Assembly (NCBI GenBank): GCA_024195265.1
Contig: JAJLRJ010000014.1
Location: forward strand, 13,102,562-13,166,561
DNA length: 64,000 nt
Origin: Dendrophyllia cribrosa
Taxonomy: Eukaryota; Cnidaria; Anthozoa; Scleractinia; Dendrophylliidae
Direction: 5' to 3'
Shown: one piece after another, positions 18,898 through 44,899 of the stretch
Position numbering within the stretch: the stretch's first letter is position 1
How the letters are laid out: each line of letters starts with the position of its first letter
Notes under the pieces: model-generated
The model's input: only the letters and a program-made list of their open reading frames with translations
Database searches by the model: none
What the model was told of the DNA's origin: nothing
Program-made: the position numbers and the translations under genes

Positions 18898-19369
18898 GGC
18901 AGTGAACCTTACATCAGAAAAGTGGGACGCCGGACTTGCAACTGAAAAAATAGCCGAGCGAACCTACTTCGCCTGAAAATCAAGTTTGGGGTATGTGTAG
19001 ACCAATAGCTCATTTTTCATTTTCGTGCTTAGTTTCCTGGCCTTTGAGTGGAAGCGAGTCTGGAGTCGACTTCGTTGTGATACACGTTGTTCAAAAGCCA
19101 CAATCTCGGAAAAAAAACTAGTTAAGACATACTAAAACTAAGACTAATTTAAGTATTCTATTGTTCTTACGGAAAACTGACTACATGTGGTTTATTATTA
19201 CATCTAACCCCACCAATACACTAAATAATTATGACTAGACAAAAGCATATGTTTAGCCACATGTTTAGTATATGTTGACGCATTTGAGAATTTTTTATGC
19301 CTGACGCATATGTATATGTTGTATGCATGATGCATATGTATATGTTGACGCATTTGTATGAGATTGTTT

Positions 19370-21189: not shown

Positions 21190-21245
21190 GTTAAAGCAAT
21201 CATGGGAGAAAAGGCTGTTTCCGGAGTGACGATTTTTTCATTTAA
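21190..21245 (+). CDS. Exon: SEA domain, middle part
   Basis: Acceptor ...tctgtacag, donor AA|gtaagt, starting in phase 0 and ending in phase 2. It encodes VKAIMGEKAVSGVTIFSF plus two bases. Together with the next exon it reads as the centre of a SEA domain, just before the G-S-V cleavage-type strand. The exon coding for the first half of the SEA domain was not found upstream. Confidence 0.7.
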
Positions 21246-24200
21246 GTAAGTTGTGTTATTCTTAAAGAGAACCTCCACCGTTATAACAAATTAATGTTTA
21301 ATTGATGGAAATAAGGTCTTAATTTCAATTTTTCCAATAACAAGTGAAAAGAAAATTTTAGTGTACAGAAATATTGGATATGAATGTCACCTATTTTCGC
21401 TATTAAATTTCCCGCAGCAAGCTATTTTCAATTTTTGTGACGTCATATGGTTGTCTAATGCTCTTTTCGCGGTCAACCTTTCTCATTTGCATTACAATAG
21501 AAATCAACGTGGTTACGAGGCAATTTCGAGCAATTTTGTAGTTTCTGCCCGAAATTGCCTCGCAACCACGTTGACTTTTATTGTAATGCAAATGAGAAAG
21601 GTTAACCGCGAAAAGGGCTATTTTTACATACAAAAGCACATCGATTCTTGACAATAGAGCACAATAAAATTTTCTTTCATTTGTTATTAAAATAATTTAA
21701 ATTTAGACATTTTATCCATCAATTCAACATCAAGTTGTTAATATATCAGTGGAGGCTCCCTTTGAGTGGATGGTACGGAGGTACCAGGCAATATCCCTCA
21801 GTATGTATCTAAAGGAGAGACCATCGGGCAAAGTGGCTGGACATTCGTGCATATTAAGGAACTACAATGGCGGGTTAGTCAAGCGTGAGCGCTCGAAAAA
21901 GCGTAACAAAAGAGAAAATGTTTGAATTTGGTGAAGTTGGCTGACTAAAATTGTCATTTCGTAGTTATTAGACGTAGTTCAAGAATCAAAGAGCTTATTT
22001 TGGTAAATGAATAATAGATCATTTTATCAACTGAAAACGTTAGGTAAATTTAACGGGAACAAGTTGTAGACATGTACAAGACAGTCCGTGTAAGGTGCGT
22101 GTCCGCCGAAAAGCAAACGAAGCGAAGGCTAAGTGAGATCTCGCCTTCGGCTCGCAAAAGAGATTTGAGATTACTTCACATTGTCCATCTTCACCCAGGT
22201 GTATAATTGGGTACCAGCAAACTGATTAGAAAATCTAATAAAATACTGGGGATGACCTTGCAATGGACTAGCATCTAATCTACGAGGGAGTAGCAATGCT
22301 ACTAGTTGTTTCATGCTGGTTTCCCTGTGGCTTGTATGTGACTTTACCTTTGCCTTCGATGCAGTAATAAATTTTGATTTGATTTTTATCTTGAAGAAAG
22401 GGGAGCGTCATTGCTGAGTTTTCCGTCAGTCTTTTTCACCAGTCCTACAAAGGCATCACTCCACTTCAAGATGCCATTTACACGGAAAGAAAACTTGACG
22501 ATTTATCCGTCTCAGCTGTAAATTTTACTTCACCAGATGGTAAGAAATAATTCCTCTTTGTTCTTGAATTTTTTACCCTACGCTTTATTACCAGCCGCCT
22601 TTCGGAGAATGAAATATCGGAGAGGAAAACCAGACCCGAGTTAGGGGCAGAAATCGAGCCTATTTCTACCTCAGATCGCTCAAATTTGAAAATCAAAAAT
22701 TTCATTTTGTAAACTGCACTAACACCGCACGCTTAAATCTAGGAGCCACTCTGTACAGGGTGACAAAGAGTACCACAGGAAAGTACTGCTAGTAGCTTTC
22801 ATCAGTAAATGGTTACATTTTAGGATTTCATCCACAGACTGAAAAGTTAAAACCATCTCCTACATCATAATAAACAGTACCAAAGGAAAGTACTTCTCAA
22901 TAGCTTTCATTTGAATGGTCACACTTTAGGATTTTATCGATCCACAGACTCAGAAGTTAGAACCACCTTGTATGTACAGCATAATAAACAGTACCACAGG
23001 AAAGTACTGCTCAGTAGCTTTCATTTGAATGGTCACACTTTAGGATTTCAACTGCAGACTTAAAAGCTAAAAGCCGCATTGTACAGCATAATAAACAGCA
23101 CCACAGGAAAGTACTGCTCAATAGCTTTCATTTGGATAGTCACACTTTAGGATTTTATCCACAGACTCAAAAGTTAGAATCACCTTGTACAGTATAATAA
23201 ACAGCACCACAGGAAAGTACTGCTCAGTAGCTTTCATTTGAATGGTCACAGTATAGGATTTATCCACAGACTCAAAAGTTAGAACCACCTTGTATGTACA
23301 GCATAATAAACAGTACCACAGGAAAGTACTGCTCAGTAGCTTTCATTTGAATGGTCACACTTTAGGATTTCAACTGCAGACTTAAAAGCTAAAAGCCGCA
23401 TTGTACAGCATAATAAACAGCACCACAGGAAAGTACTGCTCAATAGCTTTCATTTGGATAGTCACACTTTAGGATTTTATCCACAGACTCAAAAGTTAGA
23501 ATCACCTTGTACAGTATAATAAACAGCACCACAGGAAAGTACTGCTCAGTAGCTTTCATTTGAATGGTCACAGTATAGGATTTATCCACAGACTCAAAAG
23601 TTAGAACCACCTTGTACGGCATAATAAACAGTACCACAGGAAAGTACTGCTCAGTAGCTTTCATTTGAATGGTCACACTTTAGGATTTTATCCACAGACT
23701 CAAAAGTTAGAACCACCTTGTACAGCATAATAAACAATATGATGAAAAATAACAGTACCACAGGAAGCTACTGCTCCATAGTTTTCATTTTAATGGTCAC
23801 ACTTTTGGATTTCAACAACGGACTGAAAAGATGTGAACCAACATACAATGCTTAATAAAGAGAACCACAGTACAGTGCTACCAAACGGCTTTCATTTGAA
23901 CTTGCACTTTTTATATTTTATATTTTCTGAAATTTCCATGGACTCCGAAAACTTAGAACCACCCTGTAAATGATAAATGAACAGAACGACAGAAAAACTA
24001 AATGTATCAACTACTTAGCTAAAGATTTTTCAAGTATCTTCAGGTAATTATCGCGGATTATTATTCAAATAGAACATCAATTTCCGGCGAACGCGTGTGA
24101 CGAAATTAAAAAAAAACTCTAACGCAGAAATTTCTTTATATATTAGACGTTTAACAAAAAATGTTTTTCCTTGCTTTATTTTGCCGCATATCAGTGACTT

Positions 24201-27200
24201 TATTTTCTACGCAATTCAGTTTATCATTCAACACATTGATACACTGCCCAAACATGGTCAAAAAGCTCTCGATATACGTTAGGTTTACATGACGTATATC
24301 CAGCGATGGAGGTAAATTTCTCATTTCAAAGGAAAGTGAAAATTACGGCTGCCTGAAATTTCGTGTTTTTACTGAAAATAATGCGTGAACTATTACAAAG
24401 AAAAGGGGAAAGAAAGAAAAAAAAGAGAAGAAAAGAGAAAAATTATTGAACACATGATTGAACAAAAAAAAAGGCGCGAAATATTTTCGCATTGTGTCGC
24501 AGTGTTTTTCGGCGAAGCTAAATAAAAGCTGGTTTAAAGTTCAACCGCTCGACACAGAGTGAATAAAGGAGCACCGGCTAATTAACAGTTATAGTGCTCG
24601 AGCTTGCGCAATATTGCTGATTTTACCCAACTCGGCCTAAGTCCTCGTCGGCTAAGTATCCGGCGATATAGAGCTGTTAAAGGCCCACCTTCACCCAAAA
24701 TGCTGTGCGCGCCGTGATCACTTTCTGTGCTGAGTTTCGTGTAACACGAAATTCACGCTTGAATGCGTGCAACCAATCAGATCACGCGTATGAACAATGG
24801 AGCATTTCAAAACAAAAAGAAACAATCGCAACGTCTTTTGGGTGAGGGTGAGCCTTTAATTAGCCGTCAATATAACAAAATTTTGGATCAGCCAGAAATC
24901 CAATCAGTATGCTCCTTTTGTAACTCGTGAATACGCAAAGCGTTAAAAGGAGTTATAGCATACAGGTAAGCATATGCAATTTTCCACTCGGTCGATCAGC
25001 TGTAAATATTGTGCCTGCAATATGTAAATGTCACCTGCCTTACCCATGGAGGGTGGTCAAGCCCAAATCATACCGTCCAGAAGGACATCGGACACCTTAT
25101 TGAGACTTATATAACCGAGTAACTGGTTAGCTTTCAGTCGAGGATAGGGGTAGCAGTTTATATAGTTAAATTTAGGACTAAGCAACCCGAGAAGCTAGGT
25201 GATATAGTGGTACGGTAAGCTATGTAAGTCTAAGCCTAGCTGAGGTCACAGATTCAATCCTGAGTGGGGATTTTAGATTTTCTTTTTTACACTTAAAAAT
25301 TTATTGAAAATAAAATTAAAGTGTCGACATTACGTTATATAAGTCTCAATAAGGTGTCCGACGTCCTTCTGGACGGTATGATTTAGGTACAACCTTGGAG
25401 GGTGGGGAGTTGGACCGGGAGTTGGACGCAGGGGGTCGATGGAGCAAAACGCCTAGGAGAGAGGAGGGTCCAAAGGTTGCTTCGTATTCACGAATTTTTA
25501 TTGTGGACTAGTTCAGCCATGTGATTTAAAAATTGACACTTCTTTGTTCCTATTTGCAATTCTAGTCCCAGTGATGGCTCCAGTAAATGTAACAGCTAAC
25601 AATTCAAGTTCCACCGCAATTCTCCTAAAATGGCTGCCTATCCCATCTAGTTATTCTAACGGTCCAATCCTGGGATACAGAATTTCCTACAGTGAAGCAG
25701 ATAGCAACGACCTCGCAGGTTTATGGCAGAAAGTTGTCGAAGGAGAAATGCTTTCATCTCATGTGACTGGATTAAAGAAATTTACTAAGTATCAGTTCCG
25801 AATGGCAGGAATTAATCGGCGAGGAGTTGGAGTGGATAGTATGCCGATAATAGCGGGCACAGACGAAGATAGTAAGCAATTAAAAATAGGCCCCCTGTGC
25901 GTACATGTGTCAACCATATATAATGTGCTTCAAACTTGATTTTGGTTTGATTTTTCTTTGCTTTTTTGTCATATTGATTATCGTGAATTACCAAAATCTG
26001 AAACAACGAAAAACACAAAGGAAAATAACTATCAAACCAAACACAATTTTTAACAACAACTAATTATATCATGTACTTGTAGAAAACAATTGGATTTATA
26101 CGTAAAATGCACAACACGGCAGGGTATTTTTAACATCTTACAGTTATCACGCGCCACTATTTATTTGTTATGGTATGACCACTAGATGTTAAGTTATTTC
26201 ATACTACCTGAACGATTATGGCATAAAACAGAAGGATCTTAAGCTCAGGCAAACAAAAAGATGCCGAGGAGAGTTGAAGAAAGTCCCACTCCCACACGAG
26301 AGTTGATTAGCACGTGGTCGAAGTCGTATCGAAAGCTCCTTCACGAATACACAGTATTCAAAGAGTTAAAATAACTCCTAAAGTGAAGTTAAATTTGGAG
26401 TTAAAATGACCCCCAAAAAGGGATTATTTTGAACCTAAATAACTCTTTGAAAAATTGCAGTGTATATGTTTTGCGATAAGTGGTTTTCTCCATGTACTCC
26501 GGTCTTCTCTATTGTCCAGAACAACTCCTCCAAATTCCATTAAGATTTGTAAAGTGCTCACAATTAGCACTGACTCTAAATACCGTTCACACGTAAATAA
26601 AGTGAGTTACTTGTTATTATTTTTAGATGTTCATTTTTTCATTCTTTCTCTCTCCACTCTCACTTAGAACCGAGTATGGTACCATCAAATATTAAAGCCA
26701 TCAACAGAAGCAGCACAGCCATTTACGTAGAATGGTCTCCAATCCCCAAACAATTCATCCACGGAATTCTACAGGGATATAGCATAACCTACACTACCGA
26801 GGCATTCGGTGACGTCAGTACGGGTGTTCACTTGACTGAAGCGGGTAGCACCTCCACCGTTATAAAAGGTCTTCTAAAGTTCTCTAACTATAGTATTCAG
26901 GTCAGCGGTTTCACTGTGAAAGGTGACGGGCCTCTGTCGCAGGCAGTGTTTGTGAGGACCGACGAAGACAGTAAGTAGACGGATAATTATTTGTTGAAAT
27001 CAAACAGACAGATAAGAAAGAGTAAGCAACAGTCGATGGGCAGGCGGTGTGATAGATACACTGACTGAATGGCTAGCCAAATGACTAACTAACTAACTAA
27101 CTGAAAGCTAGTTGTCTATTAAGAAGACAGCTACGGGAGATAAAAAGAAAAACAATACAGATACACATTTTATAAGAAGCGGCATTTTATTGATGAACAA

Positions 27201-30200
27201 ACATAAAAAAAGCCGTATGTGCGACGCAGCACTGTCGTGGTTTAGTATTGCTTCTCAATTCAAATTGCATAAAATAACTATTCTCATTGTACGTCGACAC
27301 CCTCTACTCCAAATTATCCCTATACATGAAGTGAGAGCAAATGAGCGGTTGAAATACCAAAGAAGAAGTTTCTGCTCCATTTTCTTGGTACATAGTCGTA
27401 AAATCGATCACCTCTCCCGGAGATCTTCGGAAAACGTCGTCCTCTTTTAACTCGTGAATACGCGAAGCGTTGAATGAGTTATTGCATTTGGGTAGAGATT
27501 TGACTCGATCGATCGCTCGCTAGCTCGCTCCATCGGCTGTAAACACTGTAAACATCTTCTTTTGCTTCTCTACTACGTATACCCTTATATTTTCCTCAAT
27601 ATATTACATGGGATGATGTTTTTAAATTTGCCAAATACTTAATTAAAATGTAATATTAATTGTAGTTCCCAGTCGCCCTCCAGCTAACGTCACGGGCAAC
27701 AACATTACATCAACAAGTATTGAAGTCCGATGGGAAAAGATCCCACCCCGTTACGTACACGGCATTCTCCTTGGTTACAACATATCTTTCATAGCAACTG
27801 ACAGTGGAAACGATCGACAATGGAGTGCACTTGCAGCCAATGAGTCTACTACGTCTGTGGTTTTAACCAATTTGCGCAAGTTTACAACGTATATGGTGAC
27901 GGTGGAAGGGTTAACGAGCAAAGGAAGTGGAATTGAAAGCAAGAATGTGCCTATTACTACCGCTGAAGACAGTAAGATCAATTAATCGTCTCTAATTCTT
28001 TCTTTCTGAAATTTTTAATAAATAGTACAGCAGTAAATTGGCTAAACTTTGTGCGCTGGGTATAAATAAATAATAAAAGGTCTTCGTTGAGTCAAAAGAT
28101 CACAGTGATAATATCTCATGTAACAAAATATATATTAAAGGTCAAATGAACCAAAAATTTGACATTTTTTCTTTTAGTTTAATATTAATGCAATATGTTT
28201 AATGAGTACCAAATAAACATATTCTGAAGTTTGAAACTAATTTGACTTGGCATCGCAGAGATATTGGAAGTTGAATAATGCGACTTTTTGGCCTTCATAA
28301 TCGTAGAGCGATCGGGAAAATTGTCGGAAAGTGACGTCACTATTGACGACCTCAAAACAGTCAAGGTTCGAAGTTGAAAACAATAGGTTTAATGAGCGAA
28401 AACAATGCATGCCTGCACGTGCGTTTTATATTTTAGTACATTTCCTTGCCGTTTCCTGCAAAACAACAACGTCAGATGATCAAGTTATTGGTTTTTGTGG
28501 AGAACGGGAACTCACATCGGTTAATTTTCTTTTCTCTATTTGAAATTTAAAGCCGTCACTATGAATTCAACAGTTTACCTCCACAAAAATTACCGCGTAA
28601 GTGGAGATGATTGACAGACGGGGAAAATTAACCTGCACTAAACTACCAAGTGAGTTGGATTGAAAAAACTTAACTCCGTTAAAAAAATCTATTGTATAAA
28701 CAGATGAAGTTTCTCGAAGCAATATTTCGTCGCTCAAAGCTCTTCGTTTCCTACCAAAACACACTTCGAGCTCCTCGGCCATTTTCAATGCGAAAACAGT
28801 AGAAATCTTTAAGTTTTAAGAATATACACAAGCTATAATACTCAGTATTCGCCAGGAGAGAGGACACTGGGAATGAGGTTGGCTCACCAATAGTGACGTC
28901 ACAATCCTTACCAATCCTACCACTTGTAGTGCGCGGCCATTTCAGAAACGTTTTCGTGAAGCCTTCGGAAATCTTCGTACTTTTAGCTATGTAACTTCCT
29001 TAAAGGCTCAGGAAGGAAAATTTTTGCATAAGTTTGCTTTATTATGGTTTCTTTTAACGTTTAAATGGATAAATTCATGGTTCATTTGACCTTTAATGAG
29101 AATACAAGGTAAAATACTGGAAACCATATTAGTAATTGATCTATTCATAAAACTGAAACACTTTTAAAGCGAACGATATTCACCTTTCTTAAAGGCCCAC
29201 CTTCACCCAAAATACGTTGCGGTCGTTTGTTTTTGTTTTGAAATGCTCCATTGTTCATACGCGTGATCTGATTGGCGCACGCATTCAAGAGTGAATTTCG
29301 TGTTACACGAAATTCAACACAGAAAGTGATCACGGCGCGCACAGCATTTTGGGTGAAGGTGGGCTTTTAAATTATAAAGTGTATATAATTATAAATTATA
29401 AATAACAACTACCTAGTGGATGGTTGCTTAAAGAACGGGTATTCTTAAACACGATAACAAATACTGTGAGCTGTACTTTTGGCGATGCGTTGCCATTTAT
29501 ATTCTTAGCGTTTTTACAAAAATAGAAAAATGTTCCCAAAAAAAGTAAGGGATTGACCAACTAACTTGACTGAGATGATCATCAGATAAACAGCCCCTTT
29601 TTATGTTAGGGACGTTTAAGCTTTCTAACGCGGTGGCTATTTGTGGATATTTACCGAGCCGCAAAGCGGCTAAAACTGTGAGATAATATAGCACAAACAG
29701 TGAGATAATATAGCACGAAAATGATGATTTTTAACTCATTTATTCCTGTCAAAGATTACAATTTTCGCGCGCAAATTGCTTGGAGGTGAATAGCACTCGC
29801 TATCCCGAGTCTCAGTAGCCAATCAGAGCGCGCCAGCAAAGCTATCTACTGTTTTAGTATATACTAATTTTAGTTACTTACGTTTCTTGTAGGACCGGAT
29901 GCCCACCCAGTCAACGTTACTGGCTTCAACAAAAGCTCCACTTCTCTTTTCGTTGAATGGCAGCACATTCCACCGCAACACAGAAATGGTATTCTCTTGG
30001 GATACAAAATTTTCTACGCTCCCAGAAATTCTGATCAGCCAAAGCTCAGTGTAATTGTGAATAGCTTCAGATCATCAATAGTTCTTACAAAACTGATCAA
30101 ATATACTTGGTACGACATAACCGTGGCCGGCTTCACTAGCAAAGGACTGGGACCTCAGCCTCCACCGCTAGTGATTCGGACTAGTGAAGATGGTAAGTCA

Positions 30201-30224
30201 CGTGATAGTTTTGTACAGGCTGTA

Positions 30225-30310
<86 letters not shown>

Positions 30311-33300: not shown

Positions 33301-36300
33301 ATTCCGAAAAAAAAAAAACATTTTATGAACGGCCTATCATTCATTTATTATTAGCTCCAAGTCAGTCGCCAATCGATGTTCGAGCATTGAACAAGACAAG
33401 CCCAACAAAAATTACGGTCGAATGGAACCCAATCCCCGATAAATTCTACGTCCATGGCATACTGCGAGGTTACAAAGTGCTCTACAAGGCGATTGCCATA
33501 GCAAACGAGAAACCCAAGGAGGAACTGGGAACTAGTGAAGTGATTGTTGAGCCTTCGATGCTGCTCGCCGTTCTGGAGAATTTGACTGCTTTTACCAGAT
33601 ATGAGGTTCAAGTATTGGCGTTTACAGTCAAAGGAGATGGCGTCAAGAGTCCACTTATCAGAGCAGGTAATACAAGAGAGTAACATGATTTTCAGATACT
33701 TTTGCCTGTTTTCATTTTGAGACGTCAACATGAAGTGGCATTGCCGTCTTAAAAATCAGCCTGTGATTGGTTGAAAATTTCCCGCAACAATTTATCAAAG
33801 AAAACGCAAAATGTTGATTATTTTCAGTTTGCCAGGTTTCAGTGGCAGATACATAAATGACAACAATGTATCCAATGCAATTATCCTTTTTATCGCAAGT
33901 TTTGACATCTCAAAAGCAGGTAAAAGTATTTGACAATCGTAATACAATGCAGTATTGCCGTCTCAAAATCCAATTAGTTTATAGCACGATTAGAAGCACT
34001 AGAAGTTTTGTTAATGATTTGTCATAAACCTAAGGTCAAAAGCATAGAAAAACTGGTTAACTATAATGGAAACAACGCAAGAAACGATAATAACTCGACC
34101 CATATCTAACAAACGAAAACCCAAAGCAGACACGTAATTGCTTTCGAAGACAAATCGAAAAAAAACTCTGAGTTGAATGTGACAAAGACCAAGTAAATCG
34201 AATTAGCTCATAAGTAGTCGTCATCATCATCCTTCGGTCCGGAGTGCAACCAGAACTCGCAGTACAATGTCACTCCACATATCACGGTCCTGCATTGCCG
34301 TCGTCAAATCACCCAGATGGAGTCGAGAGTCACGGGAGATTTATCTCCGGGAATGTCATCCTCCTTGAGTGGACAGTTCCACGAATTCTCCATAGGAGGA
34401 GGGAGAAGATGATTTCTCCTTCAGCTCTGTAGCTGTGACCGGTAAACTGGAGCCGCCTTTGATGTATCCTCTGCGGAATGGGTGGTAGTGTCCCGTAGAT
34501 CTGCGCCTTAGCTTGGTTGCGTGTTCGGACCAGTGAATGTTTTGGGCTCTGCGCAAGAGGTTGGTGTAAGTACCGTCAAGTCGTTGATGTTGACGACCCG
34601 TCAGAGACCATGTTTTGGCCCCATAGTGAAGGATTGGTTCGATCAACGTTCGGAAGAGTTCGAATTTTATGTTCTTATCAAGGTTAGAGCGCCAGGATGT
34701 CAACGTAAATCGGGCTGTACACAAGCATACGCGCAAGTACAAGCACAAGGGTAAAAAAAATTGCTCTTTCCAGTGTTTATGTTTGCGTCATGTCCGTTTT
34801 CACTTGACACAAATTTCTTATATGTTTCCTGTTACGCTTGTGCTTGCGTAGCTAGTGAAAACCAGGTTTAAAATCCCTATTTTTGTTTCAGATACTTGCA
34901 ACTGCTACAGTACCATCTTCACTAACTGGTGGATCAACCCGCCTTACGTGGACAGCCCGCAATCGAATAAGAGCGGGATCATAACACCCATCCTCAAAGA
35001 GGCCGTGCACTCCTGTTGCGGAAACTGTACCGAACATGGCACCTCTCGCGTGGACTTCACCCGCACAGCCACGGGATATCCCGCGAGGAAATCCGGGCTT
35101 GTGCAGTTCAAGAACGGCATCGAGGAGACAACTGAACTGCAATTTCCGGTTTATGGGTTCATGGACCAGACTCGTTACTCAGGTAGTTATGGGTTTGTCC
35201 CGTTTGTGCAGTCACCTGGGTTAGCGCTGATCGTCATTGGAGACGAAAAAGGTACTGCTGCTTCCTTGCTGCTGAAGTCACTGGCGTTATGCTTTCCGAT
35301 TCTGTTTCTGTCCATTGCGATGTTGTGGGTCTCCAGTCTTGCCATGTGGTTTGTGGTAAGTTGTAACATGAAAGTCTACTCTCTACTGATTCAATAAACA
35401 ATCAGCACCACAGGAAAGTTTGCTCAATAGCTTTCATTTGAATGGTCACACGTTAGAATTTCATCCACAGACTCAAAACGTTAGAACCACGTTGTACAGC
35501 ATAATAAACAGTACCACAGGAAAGTACTGCTCAGTAGCTTTCCTTTGAATGGCCACACTTTAGGATTTCATCTACAGACTCAAAACGTTAGAACCACCTT
35601 GTACAGCATAATAAACAGTAGCACAGGAAAGTACTGCTCAATAGCTTTCATTTGAATGGCCACATTTGGGGATTTCATCTACAGACTCAAAACGTGAGAA
35701 CCACCTTGTACAGCATAATAAACAGTAGCACAGGAAAGTACTGCTCAATAGCTTTCATTTGAATGGCCACATTTGGGGATTTCATCTACAGACTCAAAAC
35801 GTGAGAACCACCTTGTACAGCATAATAAACAGTACCACAAGAAAGTACTGCTCAATAGCTTTCAATTGAATGGTCACACTTGGGGATCATGTTCATCCAC
35901 AGACTCAAAAGTTAGAACCATCTTGTACAGCATGATAAACAGCACCACAGGAAAGTACTGCTCAATAGCTTTCCTTTGAATGGCCACACTTTAGGATTTC
36001 ATCTACAGACTCAAAACGTTAGAACCACCTTGTACAGCATAGTAAACAGTACCACAGGAAAGTACTGCTCAATAGCTTTCCTTTGAATGGTCACACTTTA
36101 GGATTTCATCCACAGACTCAAAAGTTAGAACCACCTTGTACAGCATGATAAACAGTACCACAGGAAAGTACTGCTCAATAGCTTTCATTTGAATGGTCAC
36201 ACTTTAGGATTTCATCCACAGACTAAAAAGTTATAACCACCTTGTAGAGCGCAATAAACAGTGCCATAGGAAAGTACTGCTCAATAGCTTTCATTTGAAC

Positions 36301-37650
36301 GGTGACACATAAGGATTTAATCCATGGACTGAAAACTTATAAGAACCACCTTGTACAGCCTTATAAACAGTGTCACAAGAAAGCACTGCTCGGCAATATA
36401 TTTTGCTTCATTTTAATATCTTAATTAAGGATATCATCCAAAGAATCAGTGTAAAATGAAAACTATTGAGTATTATTATGTGAAGGTGCTGAAGAAAGTC
36501 GTGGTTTTTTTTTTCTTAAAGGACCCTAGTCATCCAAAATGCACTGCGCGCTCAAACGGTGAAATCCGCCATTTTCGATGCCATCGATATAACTTAACAT
36601 TGCATAGTGAATCGGAATCTTACTGCATCGTCCCAAGTTGTGTAAATGAAACTCTGTAACTGTTATCGTCGTTTTTTTGAATTATTAGTCTATCGGTTTG
36701 AATGATTTTTTTCGTAGTTTTGCGCTACCGGTGGACAAGGTTTTGACATCCAAAGTCAATGGTCTTATGACCTCACGATTTCCCAAGCGTCGACAGTCGA
36801 AGGAGCCAGGAAATGCAAAAAACTTTCCACCTTTGGATTGCGAGCAAAAGTGAAGTTGGAATCGTACGGCTAAACCATAGCCAGTTCGCCGAATTGTTGT
36901 TGTTAAAAAATGTACAACAGTTGCATCCGGCCGTGAGAATTATGAAACAGCAAACCTGCTGGAGATTCAAATATTGTCAATATTTCACAAACTGATTTCA
37001 TGATGGATGCAATAACGTCATACGTTTAACAACGAAAGTACAGCCTAGCTCCGAGACACGCAACTTAAACGCAGAATAAACTCTGAGGAGTCGAAAACAA
37101 TTATAATATGCCATTATTCTATGGAATCATTGATAAACACTATCTCGGAAGCCATGCTAACCGCAGACTTGCGCTCACACAAAATCACGAACTGAGAAGA
37201 GAAATTAACTCAGTGATCCTAGCATTTAGCGACTAACTACTGATCTTGCAGACTATGCGCCAAAGAAACAATATTGTTATGCCGAGAACTAGCAAACAGC
37301 GGTGGCATAACTAAATATTCTCATAATAAACGGCTCTGGTGGAAAGCGTAAATATCTCCTGTCAGTATCAGAGACTTTCCTAAGATCAAAGAATCGGCAA
37401 CATTGAGAACAACAGTCCTGTTATATCTTAATTTTGATCTATAAAAAGAAAACAATCTCTCAGACACGTACTTGGGGTAACCCTATTCTAAAGCCGGGCT
37501 GAAATGCTTTTTTTTGCGACAAGCAGGATTTGTGCTAGGCCTGTCACCTTTTGTAACGATATTTTTATAAATATCTCGCCTCTGACCTGTCGCGGCGATT
37601 TCCTTACTTTTGGTCACGCGCCACGTGTAATATAATACCGAGACTCCCGT

Positions 37651-37682
<32 letters not shown>

Positions 37683-40600
37683 ATCCTTTAACTTGAGCAG
37701 TCTTGGCTGTGAAAGTGTTAATATAGCACAACATCCCCTCTTGCGACAAATTTTCAGTGAAAAACAAGCAATCTTTTGAATGCAACTCGTGGTCAGTTGC
37801 AGTTTGTAAAATCAAAGGGGTTGTGCTGCATGCCTCACCGACAGACGTAGAACAGTACTTCAGGACCTTTAAAGATTTATCAGTCCTTAGAACTGAGCTA
37901 GCCCGTGCGCGCTGAACCTGCGGATTAAGCGACTTAGTGTTGTTAACGTTTCTAAAACTTTCTCAGGAAACAGCTTACAACGAGCGTCACTTCCCTCGCA
38001 ACGTTATACATGGGAGCTGGGAAGCAATGTGGTGGGCATTTGCTTCAATGACAACTCTTGGGTAAGGCGCATGCGCAACACCTTAAAACTATCTTGTATT
38101 ACCCGGGAAGGGTGAGAATTACCCGGGATGGGTGGGTATTACCCGGAAAAGGTGGGTATTACCCGGGAAGGGTGGGTATTACCCGGGAAGGGTGGGTGAA
38201 GGAGGCATTGTGACGGTGATTTTGCTGGTTTTTGGCCAAAACTATTAAATATTCGACCAGAAACCCATAAGTGGGTTGAAACGTGCAACTGTCTCTTGTA
38301 CGCTTCAAAACAAGCTTCCGATTATTCAAGTTGTTACAGCCATATTTGGAAAATCAAGATAAAAATATTAACCAATCAATTCGCTAGAACAACTTGCTTC
38401 CAATCTCGAGGGACCGAGGGGTTTCCAAATATGGTACGAAGCAAAAAATGAATATTCGGAAGCTGTGAATGCGCGTTACACGTTTCAACCCACTTATGGG
38501 TTTCTGATTCGACTTAATACCTTTGCTCATACATAAGATGCTCCTAAAACACCGACAAGAAAATATCAAGCGATTCATCGTAAACTATTATCAGCTTTTT
38601 AGCCATTTTACCAAGACACAAGAAACGAACTTGCAAAAACTGGCTAATGTTTTCAAGTTGCAATCCATTTCCATCCAGACCACCTGCAGCCAAAGACACT
38701 TATTTATAGATTACGTGTAATTGCGTTCGCGCAATCCTAATCTTATGTTGGGTATCCTGTGTGGTAGCCCGATTGAATTCAGCTTTTCGCTGTTTCTCTG
38801 TTTCGACACCACTTCAGCCCCCCCTCCCCAGAAGATTCTTTTGTTCTTTTCAGGGACAAACCGGGCGTGAACTGGTATCTACTTTGGCCTCGCACGTTTT
38901 CACATACCTTCTTTTGTGCGAACGCATTTTCATTATGGTTGATTACTACAAGTAGTATAGTAATTTTTAACAAAACCGCTTCATTGTTTTTGGAGCGAGT
39001 CAGAGTCATAGTGATACTAAGATACGTGACATTGCCTCTTTGAAGGGGACGTGCCACTAAATGGGACATGGTTTTCAGGGTCTTCTGTCTTAAACAGGGA
39101 ACACAATTTTACTATTTTTAAAGATTTACACGGAGCGTCATTTTTTGAACAGGTCGTTTTCATCTATGTAAAGTTTGTTTTTCTGGCTTTGAGAACAACA
39201 CCCGATACAACAATAACAACAACAACAATTTATCTCGGTATTCCCATATAAATACATGGTATTACCTATACAAGTAGTACGTATCAAGTATTACATGTAA
39301 GTACTAGCAGTAATCACAGATTATGGAGACGCGTTCGAAGGAATTTCCGGCGGAAATGAGCCCCTGAAAAAAACCAATAGGGGCGGCCATTTGGAAGACC
39401 GTCTACCAAAAAATCTCAAATTTTACTGCACATAAACCACAGGACAACCAACACGAAATTAGGATTGCGTTCTTCGAACGCGATAACAACAACAACAAAA
39501 AGAAACGGATATATCTGATCATTAAACTAACATAGATTGTCGATTTAACGTTGAATTATAATTATAAGCAGCGGTAGTCCTACAGACAAAAGGATCAGCG
39601 CTGCCGTTAAAAAAAAAAAAGATTTTAGAGCTATTGTCTAGATTATTAAAAACAAGATGTTGCAGAGAATGTCAAATGAAACGCCTTGGCAAAATTAAGG
39701 CTTGAGCATACGTGAAGTTCGACGTTTGCTAAACCCAAATTTAAGTTGTGTTTTGTTTCTTTTCTGAAATACTGATGTCCCGCTATAGCAGGCTTTAAAC
39801 AGACTACTTGATCCGGGGGGCGGGAAAAATTAACGGCTTTTACACTGGGAAAATGTCAAATTCCCCACTATGTTTCGGGGGTCAGGAAGAGGATTTCAAA
39901 TGACTTAATGCATAACAAACACGAGAAAAGAGCTCAGAGAAACACAAAGCGTAGCCGAGCACTTGTCGCACCTCTCGACACAGTAACCCAAGCTTTATGT
40001 AAACCTCAGTTTACCAGTGGATGCATTGCTCTAAACATTAAATAATGACGTTTTTCCTTCAGTTACGGCGATCGTATTCCAAGGACGATTTTTGGTCGCC
40101 TGGTGTGTTTATCATGGATTTTAATGGGTCTGGTTATGGTCACGTGTTTTAATTCTACCATGACAACGTTGCTGACCGCTAGGATCTTGGACAAAGATGT
40201 GAGCTTATATGGAACAAAGGTTTGTAAATTTGGTCTTAAGAATTTTGTTTCATTTTTCTAAATGATGACAAGCAAAATGTAGATTACTTACTGATCACTG
40301 GGGATGAGAGTTTTTCAATTGCATGAGTATCGAGAGTAATTTTGCGATTGCTTTGGTTTTGCATTGCTACGCTTTGTGATTGGCTAAAAATCCCGCGCCA
40401 TTTTGTCAACCAATCTGAAGTAAAACTAAGATTAAACCACTACTCACTTGAATGCGTTTTCCCGCGCTTGGCGCCGGTTACACGTATTTTCTGCGAGCTC
40501 TGATTGATTCATTGGACTGTCTGGTTCTGTTATGATTAGCCACAGTAACTACTTAGGTTTTGGCTTTACGACACTCATCTAAAATTCGTAACAAATCATA

Positions 40601-42905
40601 ACAACAAAATTGGATCAGTTAGCAGCTCCGACTTGAGTACTAAATACGCGCGGTCTGATTAAACCAATCGAACTTCTACCGCGCGGTCTCTCGATCTTAG
40701 CTTGTTTAATCACTTGCATAATTATGGACAGAACTCCACTCCACTCACTCCTATTAACATTATTAATCAGTTCATTACTCAGCAATTACTCGCTAAACTC
40801 ATTTTACTCGTTGATTGTTTCTGTCTAGTAAAAGGAAACACAAATTTGCTGGATGATAGAGCGGTTTTCACTCGAGTGCCGTAAAGTTTAAATTATAGTA
40901 ATCACTCTGGCCAATCACAACAGCCCGCAAACAATCCAGTGAACCAATCAGCACTCGCCAAGCGTGGGAAAACGCGTGCGAGCAAGTTACGATTGGTTTT
41001 GCTTCTGATTAGTTGAGAAAGTGGCGCGAGATTTTTTAGCCAATCACAAAACATAACAATGCAAAACCAATTGAAAACTGCTGTAACAATTAAAAATCTT
41101 TGTTTCATTCCTTTCTCAGGTTGCTGCCATCCAAAACTCTTCTGCATATCGTATTGCAATCATGAAAAACGCCCGAGTCAATCCAAACGGTGAGAAAACC
41201 AGGACAACGTTGTTTATTTAGTTTTCTAGCGGTTACGACCGGTTCCAACAAGTCTAGCTAAGATTGTGCTGCTCTCGAAAGCATTTTAAGGTTCCATATG
41301 CTACAGTTAAAGCGTTCATGGCCCAGGTTTTTTGATGATAAAAATGGTGACCCTTCCTTTGCAGGTAAGGAATACACAAATCTCCAAGAGGTTTACGAGG
41401 CTCTAACAAGTCGCGAAGTCAAAGGTATGCTTATTGACGCCTACACCGTCGGTAGCAGGAAGGAACTGTTCAATCGACGTGATCTCCGAATCAGCAAACT
41501 GCTTGACTACTCAGCCGCTTTTGGCGTCGTCCTGGGAGGAGAAGCAAAGAAGCTTCAGAAGTGCTTCCAGAAATACATGAGCGAACAACGGTCAGAGATT
41601 TCAAAGATCGTGGAGCACAATGTAGAAACCATAGAGGTAATGCATAAGTCAATTCCATCAATGCACATCTCCCTTCTTCGACCATGCTCTACACATTTAA
41701 TTTCTAAGAATGTGGACTAACGCCCCACAGTGGGACGAACGTACTGTTCAAACGTTCTGCAGCACAGAAACTTAATTTAGGATCATCTCTTGGATCGTCC
41801 ACACGTTAATTAAAGGCAAACAAATAAAGAGAGGATAAGTGCTTTTTCTCTGACGGCCATCGAATCATCGGTCGAATTTAATCACCGATATTGTCACGTT
41901 GTTTTGTCTTCCAAAGCTGATGATCACAACATTCATGCGGTGCCAAGTGTGCCAAATATCAAAAATTCAAGAAAATCCCAAATTTCATTTTGTAAAGTAA
42001 TGAAAAACAAATGGTACCATGCAAAAGTACTGCCAAAGAGGTTTCATTTGAATGGTCGCACTATAGGATTTTATTGACAGACTCAAAAGTTAGAACAAAT
42101 GGTACCATGCAAAAGTACTGCTGAAGAGGTTTTATTTGAATGGTCACACCATAGGATTTTATTGACAGACTCAAAAGTTAGAACAAATGGTACCATGCAA
42201 AAGTACTGCCAAAGAGGTTTCATTTGAATGGTCACACCATAGGATTTCATCCACAGACTCAAAAGTTAGAACAAATGGTACCATGCAAAACTACTGCCAA
42301 AGAGGTTTCATTTGAATGGTCACATCACAGCTAACACCATAGGATTTCATCCAGAGACTCAAGAGTTACAACTACACTACATGTTTCCATTATTGACTCT
42401 GGGAGTGAAAGGGGTAACATCCTTCGAATTGCGGTCGAAACTCTCCTTATGGACACCTTCATAATAGAGACACCTCCCTTTTATGGACGCTTCTCTGGGT
42501 CCCGAAAATACCAATACAATCCCTACTACTTCTATAATAGGAACACCTTTATTATGTGGACCCTTAGGTCTGTCCCTTTTGTGTCCGTATTAAGGAGGTT
42601 CTACAGGGGTAACTGCGCTCGAGATTACCGACCTGACGTCTGACGACCGTTATTCATGGGTATGGAGAACAGTTACTACTGACTAGAAATAAGTTATGCG
42701 AAGACTCTCGGCCGAGCCCGCAAGATAATAATATTGTTTATCTGAAGCGTTTAAACTATAAATATTCCAAAGCGCTAACTATAAACGACATACATGTAAT
42801 CGCTATATATAAATAAAAATGTAAATAATTATGATAAATGCTATTAATAGGAAAATACTTCTGAATTAAATAAATACTAAATTAAAGTGATGGTGGTGGT
42901 GGTGG

Positions 42906-42960
<55 letters not shown>

Positions 42961-44899
42961 GGAAGAGATTGGACTGTGTATTTTGTTCTTTGATTTAAAT
43001 CAATTAAGTTTTTTTTTATTTTCTCGCAGGTTACACCCAAAAGCAGGTCGGTGGAGCGATCCAGTAGCCTGTTTGATCCTTCTTTTCCAACATACGTCAA
43101 TTCCGTGATCATCTGCGGCGTTCTTCTTGCCGTCCTGTGGTTGGTTGGAGCGAAATTCGAGTTCGCAAAGAAAATGGGCTGGATCAAGTTTAAAGGAAAA
43201 GGTCTGTCTTCTTGAGATTTCATTTCATTCAAAGAAAGTCGAAATAAATCCACAGCCTGGGAGGAAGTTCTGAACTCAGAGTCCGGGAGAGGGGTGGTCG
43301 TTGGAAAGCCTCGCCGTCAAATCACTTCACGCGAGTATTTTGTTTTATTATATAAACTTCAGTAAAAAATACTCGGGTTTCTCGACACATTTGAAGATAT
43401 CATCAATATCAATTTATTTTCACTGTGAAGAGTGAAGATATAGAAATCTTTTCGTTAGCTACCATGTTTGCTCTCGTGAAATGTCGAACGCGCGAAAAGG
43501 TGTTGGTCTTTTAAGAAAACATCTTCGAATCTTCCTCGGAAATCTTCGGCAATCTTCAAAAATTTTCGGAACGTGATCGGAAACGTTCGAACAACCTTCG
43601 GACAGTTTTTTGGAGAATTTTCGAAAATCTTCGGGAAATCTTAGGAAAATTGCTTAAAACTTAAAGCAACTTTTAATGTCGTTTATATAATAACCAAAAT
43701 AAAACATGGTTGCTTGGATATGAAATTTCTCTTCGCGTGTTCAACTCGATATCTCAATCGAAGAGAAATTTCATTTCTCCACGCACCCATGTATTATTAT
43801 CTTCTATTTCTTCTCAAATGAAATTCCCTAAGGACGCCAACCTATACAGAGTACGACTAGGACCCGAACGTTGAGAGCGGGGTCGTAGCTGTCCAAACGA
43901 TGTCTGTGATTGGCGAACGATACAATTGATATATCACTTGAACAATGCCCCTATCCCTAATCCCTATCCCAGCGGGACAAATCTATTGTTTTCTTAGCGA
44001 ATCACAGACATCGTTTGGACAAGTGCAGGGCTACCCGACGTTGAAGCCACGACCTCTTTTACGGGCGCGTTGTTAACTTGGGTAATATTTTGAAAGTTCC
44101 TCCATCCGGGTGTTTATGATATAAGCTATATAGTATGTGTACTCTGATAATGGTTATCGATTAACGTTTCAGGTCTCAAAATATAGGCAGGGAAATAACC
44201 TACCTTGGAAAATTACATACTTTGGTCTGAAAATAAGCAAGGGTTTTGATATGCAAGCCCCACACCCCTATCAAAATCTTAAGGACCCCCACCCACGAAT
44301 AAATAACTGCCAATTTGAGACTTCTTGCGAAAAGTTATCGCGAAAGGAGGGGAGTCCCTTTTCCCCGTGGATCTAGGCTCTTGACTGTGTTTTTCATCCA
44401 AGCACGCGAGCCGGTAAGAGATTGTAATATAGCCTCATATTTGCGCTTGGTTTAGTGCGCACCAAGTCAGCCGTTATTATATAATTATGTACTCAACAAA
44501 ACAAAAGAATAACAGCTTCGAACGTGCTTAGTGAATCCTGCTTTTTTTAATTTTACAGCTAAACATGACGCGCTTCCAAGACGTGTGGAGTTGTTGAGAA
44601 ACAAAGCTGAGCTCAAGTCGGAGATGTCTAGAATAGTCACCATTTTCAAGATCAACTGCTCGCGCCGTATACAGGCCCTCCGGCAAAAACACAAGAAAGA
44701 GCTGTTGCATCTAGCGAAGCTCAAGAAACAAGCCAATAACGTGCTGATTCAGAAGCCCTCATTTCGCAGGGATGGTTTCATTACCTTCACGTTTGGACAC
44801 AGAACGCCCGAACACCTTAACGGCTCGGGAAGAAATGGCCACACAAAACAAGCTTCATATCTTAAAGAATTTGAGAATGAAACGGAAACCATAGTATAG
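21190..44899 (+). CDS. SEA-FN3x6-iGluR-like K+ channel gene, copy B (gene-level entry, 5' end not visible)
   Basis: Fifteen exons: 21190-21245, 22397-22539, 25566-25871, 26668-26970, 27666-27971, 29893-30192, 31697-31999, 33355-33666, 34892-35355, 37967-38061, 40063-40219, 41120-41189, 41365-41636, 43030-43201, 44559-44899. All borders are AG/GT, all phases agree, and the sum (3,600 bases) closes on a TAG. Approximate residues: SEA 1-66, FN3 domains 67-676, S1 half-domain 677-800, M1 801-831, pore loop and filter 845-866, inner helix 872-895, S2 half-domain 915-1029, last membrane helix 1053-1072, tail 1086-1199. The order S1-M1-pore-helix-S2-helix is that of animal ionotropic glutamate receptors, whereas the filter (T-L-G-Y-G-D) is that of K+ channels, as in bacterial GluR0. 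Expected at the plasma membrane with the FN3 stack outside. No start codon or signal peptide was found; upstream exons may lie in 18898-21189, in the N gap or beyond. The fusion is inferred from splice phase. Confidence 0.8.
21266..21758. mobile_element. Foldback element in the SEA intron
   Basis: Outer arms AGAACCTCCACCG and CAGTGGAGGCTCCC. A central near-perfect hairpin near 21465-21615 (GTCAACCTTTCTCATTTGCA and its inverse). About 490 bp. Confidence 0.75.
22397..22539 (+). CDS. Exon: SEA domain, C-terminal part with GSVI motif
   Basis: The acceptor follows ...tttttatcttgaag and the donor is G|gtaaga; the phase joins exactly to the previous exon. It encodes KKGSVIAEFSVSL and continues to VNFTSPD, about 47 residues. 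The K-G-S-V-I strand is the typical SEA motif, at which many SEA domains cleave themselves between G and S. There is one N-glycosylation sequon (N-F-T). It ends in phase 1, matching the FN3 exons that follow. Confidence 0.75.
22745..23900 (+). repeat. 107-bp satellite array with a three-unit higher-order repeat
   Basis: Ten or so units of the same 107-bp family in the intron between the SEA exon and FN3 domain 1. A block of about 322 bp starting near 22969 is repeated nearly unchanged from near 23291, so three monomers form a higher-order unit. The last two units are more degenerate. Confidence 0.9.
24681..24855. mobile_element. TTAA-flanked MITE, family 2
   Basis: 175 bp with TTAA at 24677-24680 and 24856-24859. 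The inverted ends are AGGCCCACCTTCACCCAAAA at the left and the inverse of a slightly changed version at the right. A second copy in opposite orientation is at 29193-29366. Confidence 0.82.
25065..25384. mobile_element. Inverted-repeat element holding a tRNA-like sequence
   Basis: Ends AAATCATACCGTCCAGAAGG and the inverse; arms about 50 bp. The interior holds the tRNA-like stretch at 25193-25272. Confidence 0.75.
25193..25272 (+). pseudogene. tRNA-derived (SINE-like) sequence
   Basis: TGATATAGTGGTACGG resembles the A box of Asp/Glu-type tRNAs and AGATTCAATCC the B box (GGTTCGANTCC) at a fitting distance. The acceptor stem and a clean cloverleaf are not seen, so this is a decayed tRNA-like promoter rather than a tRNA gene. 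Confidence 0.4.
25566..25871 (+). CDS. Exon: FN3 domain 1
   Basis: Phase 1-1 exon of 306 bases with acceptor ...gcaattctag and donor A|gtaagc. It encodes one whole fibronectin type III domain: an N-terminal P-x-x-P-x-N-V stretch, the strand-B tryptophan in L-L-K-W-L-P-I-P, G-Y-R-I-S-Y in strand C, and the strand-F tyrosine in F-T-K-Y-Q-F-R-M. It ends in a G-T-D-E-D linker. Several N-x-S/T sequons lie near the start. Confidence 0.88.
26668..26970 (+). CDS. Exon: FN3 domain 2
   Basis: Phase 1-1 exon of 303 bases, acceptor ...ctctcacttag, donor A|gtaagt. Landmarks are V-E-W-S-P-I-P, H-G-I-L-Q-G-Y-S-I-T-Y and F-S-N-Y-S-I-Q-V, followed by F-T-V-K-G-D-G and an R-T-D-E-D linker. It is closely related to the other FN3 exons of this gene. 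Confidence 0.9.
26971..27665. other. Intron between FN3 domains 2 and 3
   Basis: No element with clear ends. Contains AACTCGTGAATACGCGAAGCGTT, also found (slightly changed) near 24916, a dispersed repeat. The frame at 27112-27450 shows no coding signs. Confidence 0.5.
27666..27971 (+). CDS. Exon: FN3 domain 3
   Basis: Phase 1-1 exon of 306 bases, acceptor ...taattgtag, donor A|gtaaga. It shows V-R-W-E-K-I-P-P, H-G-I-L-L-G-Y-N-I-S-F, F-T-T-Y-M-V-T-V-E-G and a T-T-A-E-D linker. Three early sequons (N-V-T, N-I-T and a later N-E-S) suggest glycosylation. Confidence 0.88.
28139..29092. mobile_element. TTAA-flanked element, family 3 (954 bp)
   Basis: TTAA at 28135-28138 and 29093-29096; ends AGGTCAAATGAACCA and its inverse TGGTTCATTTGACCT. 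No transposase frame; the small frames inside on both strands lack features. Confidence 0.82.
29193..29366. mobile_element. TTAA-flanked MITE, family 2, inverted copy
   Basis: 174 bp with TTAA at 29189-29192 and 29367-29370. The inside matches the reverse complement of 24681-24855. Lies in the intron between FN3 domains 3 and 4. Confidence 0.82.
29893..30192 (+). CDS. Exon: FN3 domain 4
   Basis: Phase 1-1 exon of 300 bases, acceptor ...gtttcttgtag, donor G|gtaagt. It carries V-E-W-Q-H-I-P-P, N-G-I-L-L-G-Y-K-I-F-Y, Y-T-W-Y-D-I-T-V-A-G and an R-T-S-E-D linker. A (TTGA)n microsatellite begins about 35 bases after the donor. Confidence 0.9.
30228..30309 (+). repeat. (TTGA)n microsatellite after FN3 domain 4
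   Basis: About 20 perfect tetranucleotides beginning about 35 bases after the exon donor. Confidence 0.97.
30576..31311. mobile_element. Tigger/pogo-like TA-flanked element with cargo frame
   Basis: TA at 30574-30575 and 31312-31313. Ends CAGTCGACTCCCGATAACTC and its exact inverse, with further inner repeats of the TAACTCGAACC motif. The CAGT-type end and TA target suit the Tigger/pogo branch of Tc1/mariner. The 736 bp hold no transposase but do hold a HIRAN-like frame on the minus strand. Confidence 0.8.
30907..31143 (-). pseudogene. HIRAN-like fragment inside the Tigger-like element
   Basis: 78 residues starting at a GTG/Q-R-D position, with R-D-G-E-V-V-G-H-L-M-K, V-V-V-T-G-K-A-V-N-R-G-D-G and M-Q-V-P-C-T-L-N-F-K-G. 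This pattern (x-G-x-V-V-G-H-L followed by V-T-G-x-x-x-N and V-P-C) resembles the second half of HIRAN-type domains, which bind DNA ends in helicases such as HLTF. The first half is missing: a stop lies just upstream. Family call from memory of the pattern. Confidence 0.45.
31697..31999 (+). CDS. Exon: FN3 domain 5
   Basis: Phase 1-1 exon of 303 bases, acceptor ...ctgatttttag, donor A|gtaagt. Landmarks are F-V-Q-W-N-E-I-P-P, H-G-E-L-L-G-F-R-V-L-F-W and Y-T-K-Y-K-I-Q-V-L-G, with an S-T-D-E-F linker. A 415-bp inverted-repeat element starts 11 bases after the exon. Confidence 0.9.
32010..32424. mobile_element. GGCCCCGTCCACACG-type foldback element
   Basis: 415 bp from GGCCCCGTCCACACGTATAC to its exact inverse; inner CGTAAACG words repeat in both directions. 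It begins 11 bases after the FN3 domain 5 exon. Confidence 0.82.
32425..33211. other. Unique intron sequence before copy B
   Basis: AT-rich, no repeat or exon recognised. It marks the left border of the visible duplication, which coincides with base 1 of this window and so may not be the true border. Confidence 0.5.
33355..33666 (+). CDS. Exon: FN3 domain 6 (membrane-proximal), copy B
   Basis: Phase 1-1 exon of 312 bases, acceptor ...catttattattag, donor CAG|gtaata. It shows V-E-W-N-P-I-P-D, H-G-I-L-R-G-Y-K-V-L-Y, F-T-R-Y-E-V-Q-V-L-A and F-T-V-K-G-D-G. It is the last FN3 unit before the ligand-binding-like S1 segment; the terminal G joins the next exon to make the D of D-T-C-N-C. Confidence 0.92.
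34241..34706 (-). mobile_element. LINE 3' fragment, copy B
   Basis: Duplicate of 1030-1495 with the same frameshifted reverse-transcriptase end. Confidence 0.75.
34892..35355 (+). CDS. Exon: iGluR-like S1 half-domain and M1 helix, copy B
   Basis: A 464-base exon from phase 1 to phase 0, acceptor ...tttttgtttcag, donor GTG|gtaagt. It starts D-T-C-N-C-Y-S and contains W-W-I-N-P-P-Y-V-D (the usual P-P-[FY] of S1 domains), S-G-I-I-T-P-I-L-K-E, a C-C-G-N-C cysteine group and M-D-Q-T-R. The arginine (codon 35173-35175) sits where glutamate receptors keep the amino-acid-binding Arg, ahead of Y-G-F-V-P-F. The exon ends in a hydrophobic stretch of about 31 residues (SLLLKSLAL to LAMWFV), read as M1. 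The alignment to glutamate receptors was made by eye. Confidence 0.82.
35401..36391 (+). repeat. 107-bp satellite array, copy B
   Basis: Duplicate of the 2190-3180 array. Confidence 0.92.
36520..37687. mobile_element. TTAA-flanked transposon T1, copy B
   Basis: Duplicate of 3309-4476, again flanked by TTAA. Confidence 0.82.
37967..38061 (+). CDS. Exon: pore helix and first half of the K+ filter, copy B
   Basis: A 95-base exon, acceptor ...actttctcag, donor TTGG|gtaagg. It encodes ETAYNERHFPRN, then VIHGSWEAMWWAFASMTTLG, a textbook K+ channel pore helix (W-W-A-F-x-x-M-T-T). It ends inside the codon of the first filter glycine (GG|T), so the intron cuts the selectivity filter. Confidence 0.9.
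38100..38197 (+). repeat. 22-bp minisatellite, copy B
   Basis: Duplicate of 4889-4986. Confidence 0.9.
40063..40219 (+). CDS. Exon: second half of the K+ filter and inner helix, copy B
   Basis: A 157-base exon, acceptor ...ttttccttcag, donor AAG|gtttgt. It completes the filter glycine and encodes YGDRIPRTIFGRL, then VCLSWILMGLVMVTCFNS, then T-M-T-T-L-L-T-A. The Y-G-D-R-x-P-R-T run after the filter is reminiscent of the bacterial K+-selective glutamate receptor GluR0. The polar end of the helix corresponds in position to the gate region of glutamate-receptor M3. Confidence 0.9.
41120..41189 (+). CDS. Exon: start of S2 half-domain, copy B
   Basis: A 70-base exon, acceptor ...ttcctttctcag, donor G|gtgaga, phase 0 to 1. 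It encodes VAAIQNSSAYRIAIMKN then A-R-V-N-P-N. Q-N-S-S-A-Y-R suits the segment of S2 that contacts ligand and follows the inner helix in glutamate receptors. Confidence 0.85.
41365..41636 (+). CDS. Exon: main S2 half-domain, copy B
   Basis: A 272-base exon, acceptor ...cctttgcag, donor GAG|gtaatg, phase 1 to 0. It encodes GKEYTNLQEVYEALTSREV, K-G-M-L-I-D-A-Y-T-V-G, then L-D-Y-S-A-A-F-G-V-V-L and a helix ending N-V-E-T-I-E. Such a helix-strand-helix pattern after the channel helix matches the S2 lobe of glutamate receptors. The open frame continues upstream of the acceptor only by chance. Confidence 0.85.
42006..42371 (+). repeat. 88-bp variant satellite array, copy B
   Basis: Duplicate of 8795-9160. 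Confidence 0.88.
42888..42959 (+). repeat. (GAT)n microsatellite, copy B
   Basis: As copy A but three units shorter. Confidence 0.97.
43030..43201 (+). CDS. Exon: last membrane helix, copy B
   Basis: A 172-base exon, acceptor ...attttctcgcag, ending G|gtctgt. It encodes a serine/arginine linker and then YVNSVIICGVLLAVLWLVGA, the last membrane helix, followed by basic K-K-M-G-W-I-K-F-K. The codon at 43195-43197 is GGA (G), whereas copy A has GAA (E). The donor is weak; without splicing the frame runs G-L-S-S and stops at 43213-43215, giving a short alternative tail. Confidence 0.83.
44559..44899 (+). CDS. Terminal exon: basic helical cytoplasmic tail, copy B
   Basis: A 341-base exon with acceptor ...tttaattttacag, joining in phase 1, stop TAG at 44897-44899. 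It encodes AKHDALPRRVELLRNKAELK and then a long lysine/arginine-rich helix (Q-A-L-R-Q-K-H-K-K-E-L-L-H-L-A-K-L-K-K-Q) that could form a coiled coil. It ends F-E-N-E-T-E-T-I-V, whose last residues resemble a PDZ ligand ([ST]-x-V). No known catalytic motif is seen. Confidence 0.78.

Follow-up and report, generated by a model that had tools for sequence, protein, structure and literature searches.

Fifteen exons were recognised between positions 21190 and 44899 of the window, the stretch of 64,000 nucleotides from Dendrophyllia cribrosa analysed here. All of them had an AG acceptor and a GT donor, with the last one closing in a stop codon, and the phases joined them into a single frame of 1,200 codons with the stop counted, so the exon structure and the 1,199 residues of the first-pass annotation were borne out for this interval. 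In the spliced window model, six fn3 stretches were found by Pfam, in agreement with the six FN3 domains already proposed, together with Ion_trans_2 (47.3 bits, cut-off 22.5) and Lig_chan (31.8, cut-off 30.8), and the proposed K+ signature was recovered as the filter TTLGYGD. The Pfam scan and the channel homologue search were run on a first model with two wrong 5' exons, which left the channel part unaffected. Those two exons (21018-21131 and 21707-21873) were dropped, as the relative P0001 and the upstream contig gave the true SEA exons. The features of the locus were as follows.

1..18397, + strand: end of the upstream contig, a repeat of 33212-51585 (99.85%, 2 substitutions, 8 gaps)
18398..18897, no strand: 500-N gap between overlapping contigs
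18898..18990, + strand: SEA exon a, incomplete (N gap; 1 base short near the contig start), with an intact open-frame upstream copy at -14332..-14223
21190..21245, + strand: SEA exon b (VKAIMGEKAVSGVTIFSFK), internal and not the first exon, matched to P0001 by eye
22397..22539, + strand: SEA exon c with GSVIAEF, similar to the SEA self-cleavage motif
25566..25871, + strand: FN3 domain 1, phase 1 at both ends (Pfam)
26668..26970, + strand: FN3 domain 2 (Pfam)
27666..27971, + strand: FN3 domain 3 (Pfam)
29893..30192, + strand: FN3 domain 4 (Pfam)
31697..31999, + strand: FN3 domain 5 (Pfam)
33355..33666, + strand: FN3 domain 6 (Pfam), second copy at 144-455
34892..35355, + strand: S1-position segment (TCNC and CCGNC cysteines) and M1; S1 undetected by profile
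37967..38061, + strand: pore helix, ending in WWAFASMTTLG; the donor splits the filter glycine codon
40063..40219, + strand: filter end, with YGDRIP, and M2 gate helix; split codon shared with 23 other listed pore exons
41120..41189, + strand: S2 lobe, exon a
41365..41636, + strand: S2 lobe, exon b, with an acidic residue (LIDAY) in 15/15 rows
43030..43201, + strand: last transmembrane helix (M4-like, by hydropathy), one substitution in the second copy
44559..44899, + strand: tail (presumably cytoplasmic) and stop codon

The exon at 21190 was internal, and the ATG within it was likewise internal and not a start, since the relatives start with LamG and TSP1 and the coral's own upstream contig adds both. 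The window is part of a 27-Mb contig, and the genome as searched has 627 Mb in 22 contigs. Within the 50 kb examined upstream of the window, a LamG exon was located on the overlapping contig (-21712..-20995, relative to the window), and TSP1 was encoded by one giant exon (-17473..-14825). With the upstream exons the number of coding exons in the complete gene rose to 18, and the stop followed 2,358 codons, so the product is about 2,358 residues long with LamG and TSP1 in front, instead of the 1,199 first reported. Fifteen TSP_1 and one Laminin_G_3 (55.4 bits, cut-off 27.6) were identified in the full product by Pfam. The domain order was a hydrophobic N-terminus, read by eye as a signal sequence, followed by Laminin_G_3, 15 TSP1, the SEA-like segment, six FN3, the S1 position, M1, pore, M2, S2, the M4-like helix and the tail, and the hydropathy profile of the channel peaked at M1, M2 and the last helix. 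An amino-terminal domain of the periplasmic-binding type was absent by Pfam, with LamG, TSP1 and FN3 present instead. With P0001-P0011 as tblastn queries, nothing more was found at 12,000-18,900 or beyond 45,000 except the SEA exon at 18899.

The SEA segment of the window protein matched 0 Pfam families. In the Actinia relative P0008 the segment reached 27.6 against the SEA cut-off of 26.4 when scanned alone, and 22.2 in the whole protein, and the segments were homologous by profile (hhalign 98.4%). The SEA domain claimed earlier is thus a putative one, read from P0008 and segment homology and not from a Pfam match of its own, and the segment would be called SEA-like. GSVIAEF in SEA exon c is similar to the self-cleavage site (G-S) of SEA domains. 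It was present in the window, P0001 and P0002, and occurred as GSVIVEF in P0011 and GSVIATF in P0008; P0004 had GAVV and P0009 had GAII, elsewhere in the protein, and no motif of this kind was present in P0003, P0005-P0007, P0010 and P0012. GSVIAEF is therefore only a putative cleavage site of the window protein.

Using the channel part as query, 11 proteins were obtained at E<=0.001, 10 of which had FN3 together with the channel, while P0011 stopped inside S1. A second protein search added P0012, P0013 and the bacterial receptor P0014; it scored those 8,000 candidates that had most words in common with the query, and relatives outside hexacorals may exist beyond these. The searches yielded FN3-channel fusions in seven named sources, Acropora palmata, Acropora digitifera, Actinostola sp., Stylophora pistillata, Nematostella vectensis, Actinia tenebrosa and Montipora foliosa, six of which, all but A. 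digitifera, were looked up and placed in Hexacorallia. In the databases these proteins were named "uncharacterized", "sidekick" or "PTPRQ-like". Their ectodomains varied, with LamG, TSP1 and FN3 in P0002, P0004 and P0005 (P0002, from Acropora palmata, had LamG, 9 TSP1, 6 FN3 and the channel), TSP1, SEA and FN3 in P0008, and lectin, discoidin and FN3 in P0012. In a tree of 14 channel domains, midpoint-rooted for drawing only, the window grouped with P0001 and P0002 (99/99) and then with the anemone protein P0003 (100/100), and P0004 and P0005 formed a separate coral-anemone pair (100/99). Because two coral-anemone groupings were supported, at least two family members probably predate the parting of corals and anemones, and the sequences compared indicate that hexacorals have a family of several genes whose members set one and the same channel module under varying adhesive ectodomains.

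The genome of D. cribrosa itself gave 103 exon places. Those of S1-M1 covering at least 130 of residues 1-157 numbered 23, four with stops inside the match, and at least 22 S1-M1 exon loci were left when the artefact copy described below was removed. The second pore exon was found at 25 places, two being the window's copies; three more matches, in frames of 484-592 residues, were left out of this count and are probably voltage-gated K+ channels. The acceptor split the filter glycine codon as G|YGD[RK] in all 23 other listed pore exons, although the query holds the filter and the search favours exons keeping it. Four other places were listed for the preceding pore exon, and the three examined all ended in TTVG. 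TLGYGD or TTLGYGD was present in 15/15 pore-holding family proteins (P0001-P0010, P0012, P0013 and P0015-P0017); P0011 stopped before the filter, and the motif was absent in P0018-P0021. The window channel is predicted from this filter to be K+-selective.

A second copy of FN3 domain 6 and all the channel exons, missed in the first-pass annotation, was located at 144-11700 besides 33355-44899. Over the whole repeat, positions 1-18397 were 99.85% identical to 33212-51585 (18,398 aligned positions), and upstream bases -14316..-5000 matched 18898-28211 with 0 substitutions and 3 gaps in 9,317 aligned positions. Two genuine tandem gene copies could be invoked, as the second channel copy differed from the first by two substitutions (one coding, in exon 43030..43201) and several indels. 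Against this, the repeat opens with the downstream contig's first base and closes with the upstream contig's last base, with the 500-N gap between, and substitutions numbered 0 in 9,317 and 2 in 18,398 positions, so tandem copies are highly improbable. What the duplication looks like is two overlapping contigs left unmerged at the gap, which explains the loss of 1 base in the SEA exon near 18898, since the other contig has the base. The 5,000 bases before the window were N, which leaves the upstream copy without readable FN3 domains 4 and 5. Gene counts at such gaps in the assembly may be inflated by false 3' duplication. Another reading, that the locus holds two adjoining genes or alternative transcripts, an adhesion protein ending after FN3 and a separate channel, could draw on the Stylophora model P0011, which stops inside S1, and on the FN3-channel joint in D. 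cribrosa being known from genomic DNA. It is opposed by P0001, which was 85% identical in the channel and whose single open frame extended from SEA as far as the C-terminus. In its cluster no contig was longer than 5,234 bases, which is too short for introns of the window's kind, so the P0001 sequence is most likely cDNA. P0010 (994 aa on 3,862 bases) also ran through and is most likely cDNA too. Annotated proteins with FN3 and channel were present in Acropora, Stylophora (P0004), Nematostella, Actinia, Actinostola and Montipora as well. The earlier proposal of one gene joining FN3 to a K+-filter channel of glutamate-receptor topology was upheld by the same order in these hexacoral proteins, the joint was no splicing mistake, and there is very little chance that two genes are present.

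For the lineage of the channel, a family profile of 15 rows was compared with an iGluR profile made from P0014, 7 loci from bacterial genome bins, and GLR3.4 and GluK2 fragments, to which the coral's own iGluRs were later added. The first comparison covered 180 columns with a probability of 98.9 and 0/100 shuffles as high, and the second reached 99.0 (score 139.3, 0/60 shuffles) over 242 columns, beginning at the end of S1 and stopping where S2 ends. S2 without the pore matched the S2 lobes of solute-binding proteins and iGluRs at 77% (score 35.1, 0/100 shuffles) and, in a second run, at 84% (score 37.4, 0/60 shuffles), while 32.5% (score 26.5) was obtained against the profile of the wrong lobe and 1.4% against the first whole-iGluR profile. 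Lig_chan matched 7/7 channel pieces at E<=10 (best 1.1e-11), and in six whole relatives none reached the cut-off, with five below it and P0005 not listed. The segment at the S1 position, about 122 residues long, gave 0.5%, 0.3% and 0.2% against S1 profiles, with 10/100 and 9/60 shuffles scoring as high, while a true coral iGluR S1, used as positive control, scored 97.7%. S1 was still undetected when 16 paralogous exons and iGluRs of the coral itself were added to the S1 profile. So the "full S1" announced at first was not recovered, as the segment is present and matches no S1 profile built.

In iGluRs, an arginine of S1 holds the carboxylate of the amino acid and an acidic residue of S2 holds its amino group. 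One arginine column was invariant in 18/18 S1 rows of conventional iGluRs, bacterial receptors and solute-binding proteins. No conserved S1 arginine existed in the 30 family rows, where the top column, which belongs to the TC(R/N)C site ahead of the lobe, reached 53%. Seven residues past the proline of the FPV motif, a place set by eye because S1 was not statistically alignable, arginine occurred in 0/30 rows and glutamine in 17/30. The S2 acidic residue was D in 15/15 rows and, in the S2 alignment, faced the D of 2pyy. The bilobed ligand-binding domain expected by the first-pass annotation was therefore supported in its S2 half, which is detectable, and not in S1, which is undetectable and has no conserved arginine; binding of the glutamate type by the window channel would therefore be unlikely. 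Column 80 of the 30-row S1 alignment was K or R in 77%, apparently in an AKK/ARK stretch, and could be a replacement ligand contact.

Two other accounts of the channel were weighed. It could be an ordinary two-helix K+ pore fused to an adhesion receptor, with an iGluR likeness that any pore loop would have, no clamshell, and flanks forming a new gating domain. The transmembrane part alone was indeed nearer to ordinary K+ channel profiles (135.8) than to bacterial iGluRs, which were without the K+ filter (107.7). K+ channel pore regions were among the best 60 of 399 matches in one PDB profile search and among the best 60 of 307 in another, and the undetectable S1 and the 1.4% of S2 against the whole-iGluR profile point the same way. 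But the iGluR match runs on through M2 and S2 to its end, S2 without the pore beat all shuffles in both runs, the S2 aspartate is kept, and the linker N..FP...G..E..WW before the filter matches that of bacterial iGluRs, which makes a plain K+-pore fusion unlikely. The profile evidence indicates that M1, pore, M2 and S2 are related to ionotropic glutamate receptors. Within that relationship, a K+ channel gated by glutamate or glycine through the usual chemistry, like GluR0 or AvGluR1, would have the same kind of pore, the same order of parts and the S2 acidic residue seen here; with no S1 arginine conserved beyond 53% and none at the FPV-marked place, it is very unlikely.

Taken as the 3' part of one receptor-channel gene of the hexacoral family, the locus would thus probably encode a hyperpolarising K+ channel gated by contact or ligand, with no canonical glutamate sensing. 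Four subunits would most likely assemble into a K+ channel of the plasma membrane. The long arm would be engaged by a ligand or a neighbouring surface; alternatively, the S1/S2 part would be engaged by some ligand that is not a free amino acid. The movement would pass via S2 to the gate helix, K+ would leave, and the cell would be hyperpolarised. The tetramer, the K+ selectivity, the gating stimulus, the SEA cleavage and the hyperpolarisation are all predictions drawn from sequence. As a tentative proposal going further, a large hexacoral family might use a glutamate-receptor-type scaffold with a K+ filter whose gate answers to engagement or pulling of the adhesive arm (LamG, TSP1 and FN3, or lectin and discoidin in relatives) instead of to an amino acid. 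A self-cleaving SEA joint might serve as release point in some members, and contact might be converted directly into hyperpolarisation, perhaps in self/non-self or symbiont recognition.

On the main reading, an animal lineage would have kept or regained a K+ pore on a glutamate-receptor scaffold and multiplied the gene, with adhesive modules standing in place of the amino-terminal domain. Such proteins would make a natural test of how gates of the glutamate-receptor type can be driven when no amino acid is involved, and they could be set beside GluR0 and AvGluR1 as living counterparts. In corals and anemones they would be a candidate receptor family for sensing contact or chemicals. The automatic names sidekick and PTPRQ conceal this channel family.

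Parts in GluR0 follow the order S1-M1-pore-M2-S2. GluR0 of Synechocystis is activated by glutamate and has a K+-type filter with two helices around the pore, according to PMC12332018, and the coral protein is like it in placing a K+-type filter in a glutamate-receptor-type channel. Compared by description and not by sequence, the coral protein differs from the two-helix GluR0 in having an M4-like helix and a tail, in carrying about 1,830 residues ahead of the channel and in lacking a conserved S1 arginine. AvGluR1 from the rotifer Adineta vaga combines a K+-type filter with animal iGluR architecture, again according to PMC12332018; by description, again without sequence comparison, it has the usual eukaryotic architecture, whereas the coral protein has LamG, TSP1, SEA and FN3 before S1. 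Sidekick and PTPRQ, the sources of some relatives' database names, have FN3 stacks in common with the coral protein, but its C-terminal part is a channel and no tyrosine phosphatase domain was listed; Pfam matches with Ig or phosphatase names overlapped the FN3 stretches.

In animals, glutamate receptors are known to be mostly excitatory and to carry an amino-terminal domain of the periplasmic type. The conventional iGluRs of the same coral share the topology, and their S2 and gate helix are detectably related to those of the window channel. PF10613 gave 53 exon matches in the coral's own genome, none of them on the window's contig, so the ordinary glutamate receptors form a separate set; in the window and the six relatives scanned PF10613 was not matched. 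A dense cluster of conventional iGluR exons (PF10613) was observed at 33.2-33.8 Mb of contig C3. The protein P0014 (1,143 aa, ena) and the loci L001-L007 were bacterial, their receptor part being of the SBP_bac_3 and Lig_chan type. In P0014 the long part before the receptor part also carried PF12679, PF12698 and PF02517, of the ABC-2 and CPBP families.

In the open-licence literature searched, covered by titles and abstracts, neither a description of the family nor one of the layout as a whole was found, in line with the novelty suggested at first, and the word fibronectin was absent from the available parts of two iGluR phylogenies (PMC12226733 and PMC6307864). The channel family is real and conserved, and it has no name in the literature so covered.

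Several repeats were also present in the window. Intronic tandem arrays were found at 22765-23736, 35403-36391 and 42006-42324, with units of 106, 107 and 88 bases and a core shared by eye, and another array with a 57-base unit carrying TTGGCCAACA was located downstream of the gene (45866-46243). The window had no tRNA gene, including in the element at 25062-25387, and no Rfam match at gathering level. This element, in the intron before FN3 domain 1, had 54-base inverted arms that were 96% complementary and 218 bases apart. Two homopolymers, 63 C at 53675-53737 and 28 G at 52168-52195, are possibly sequencing or assembly noise.
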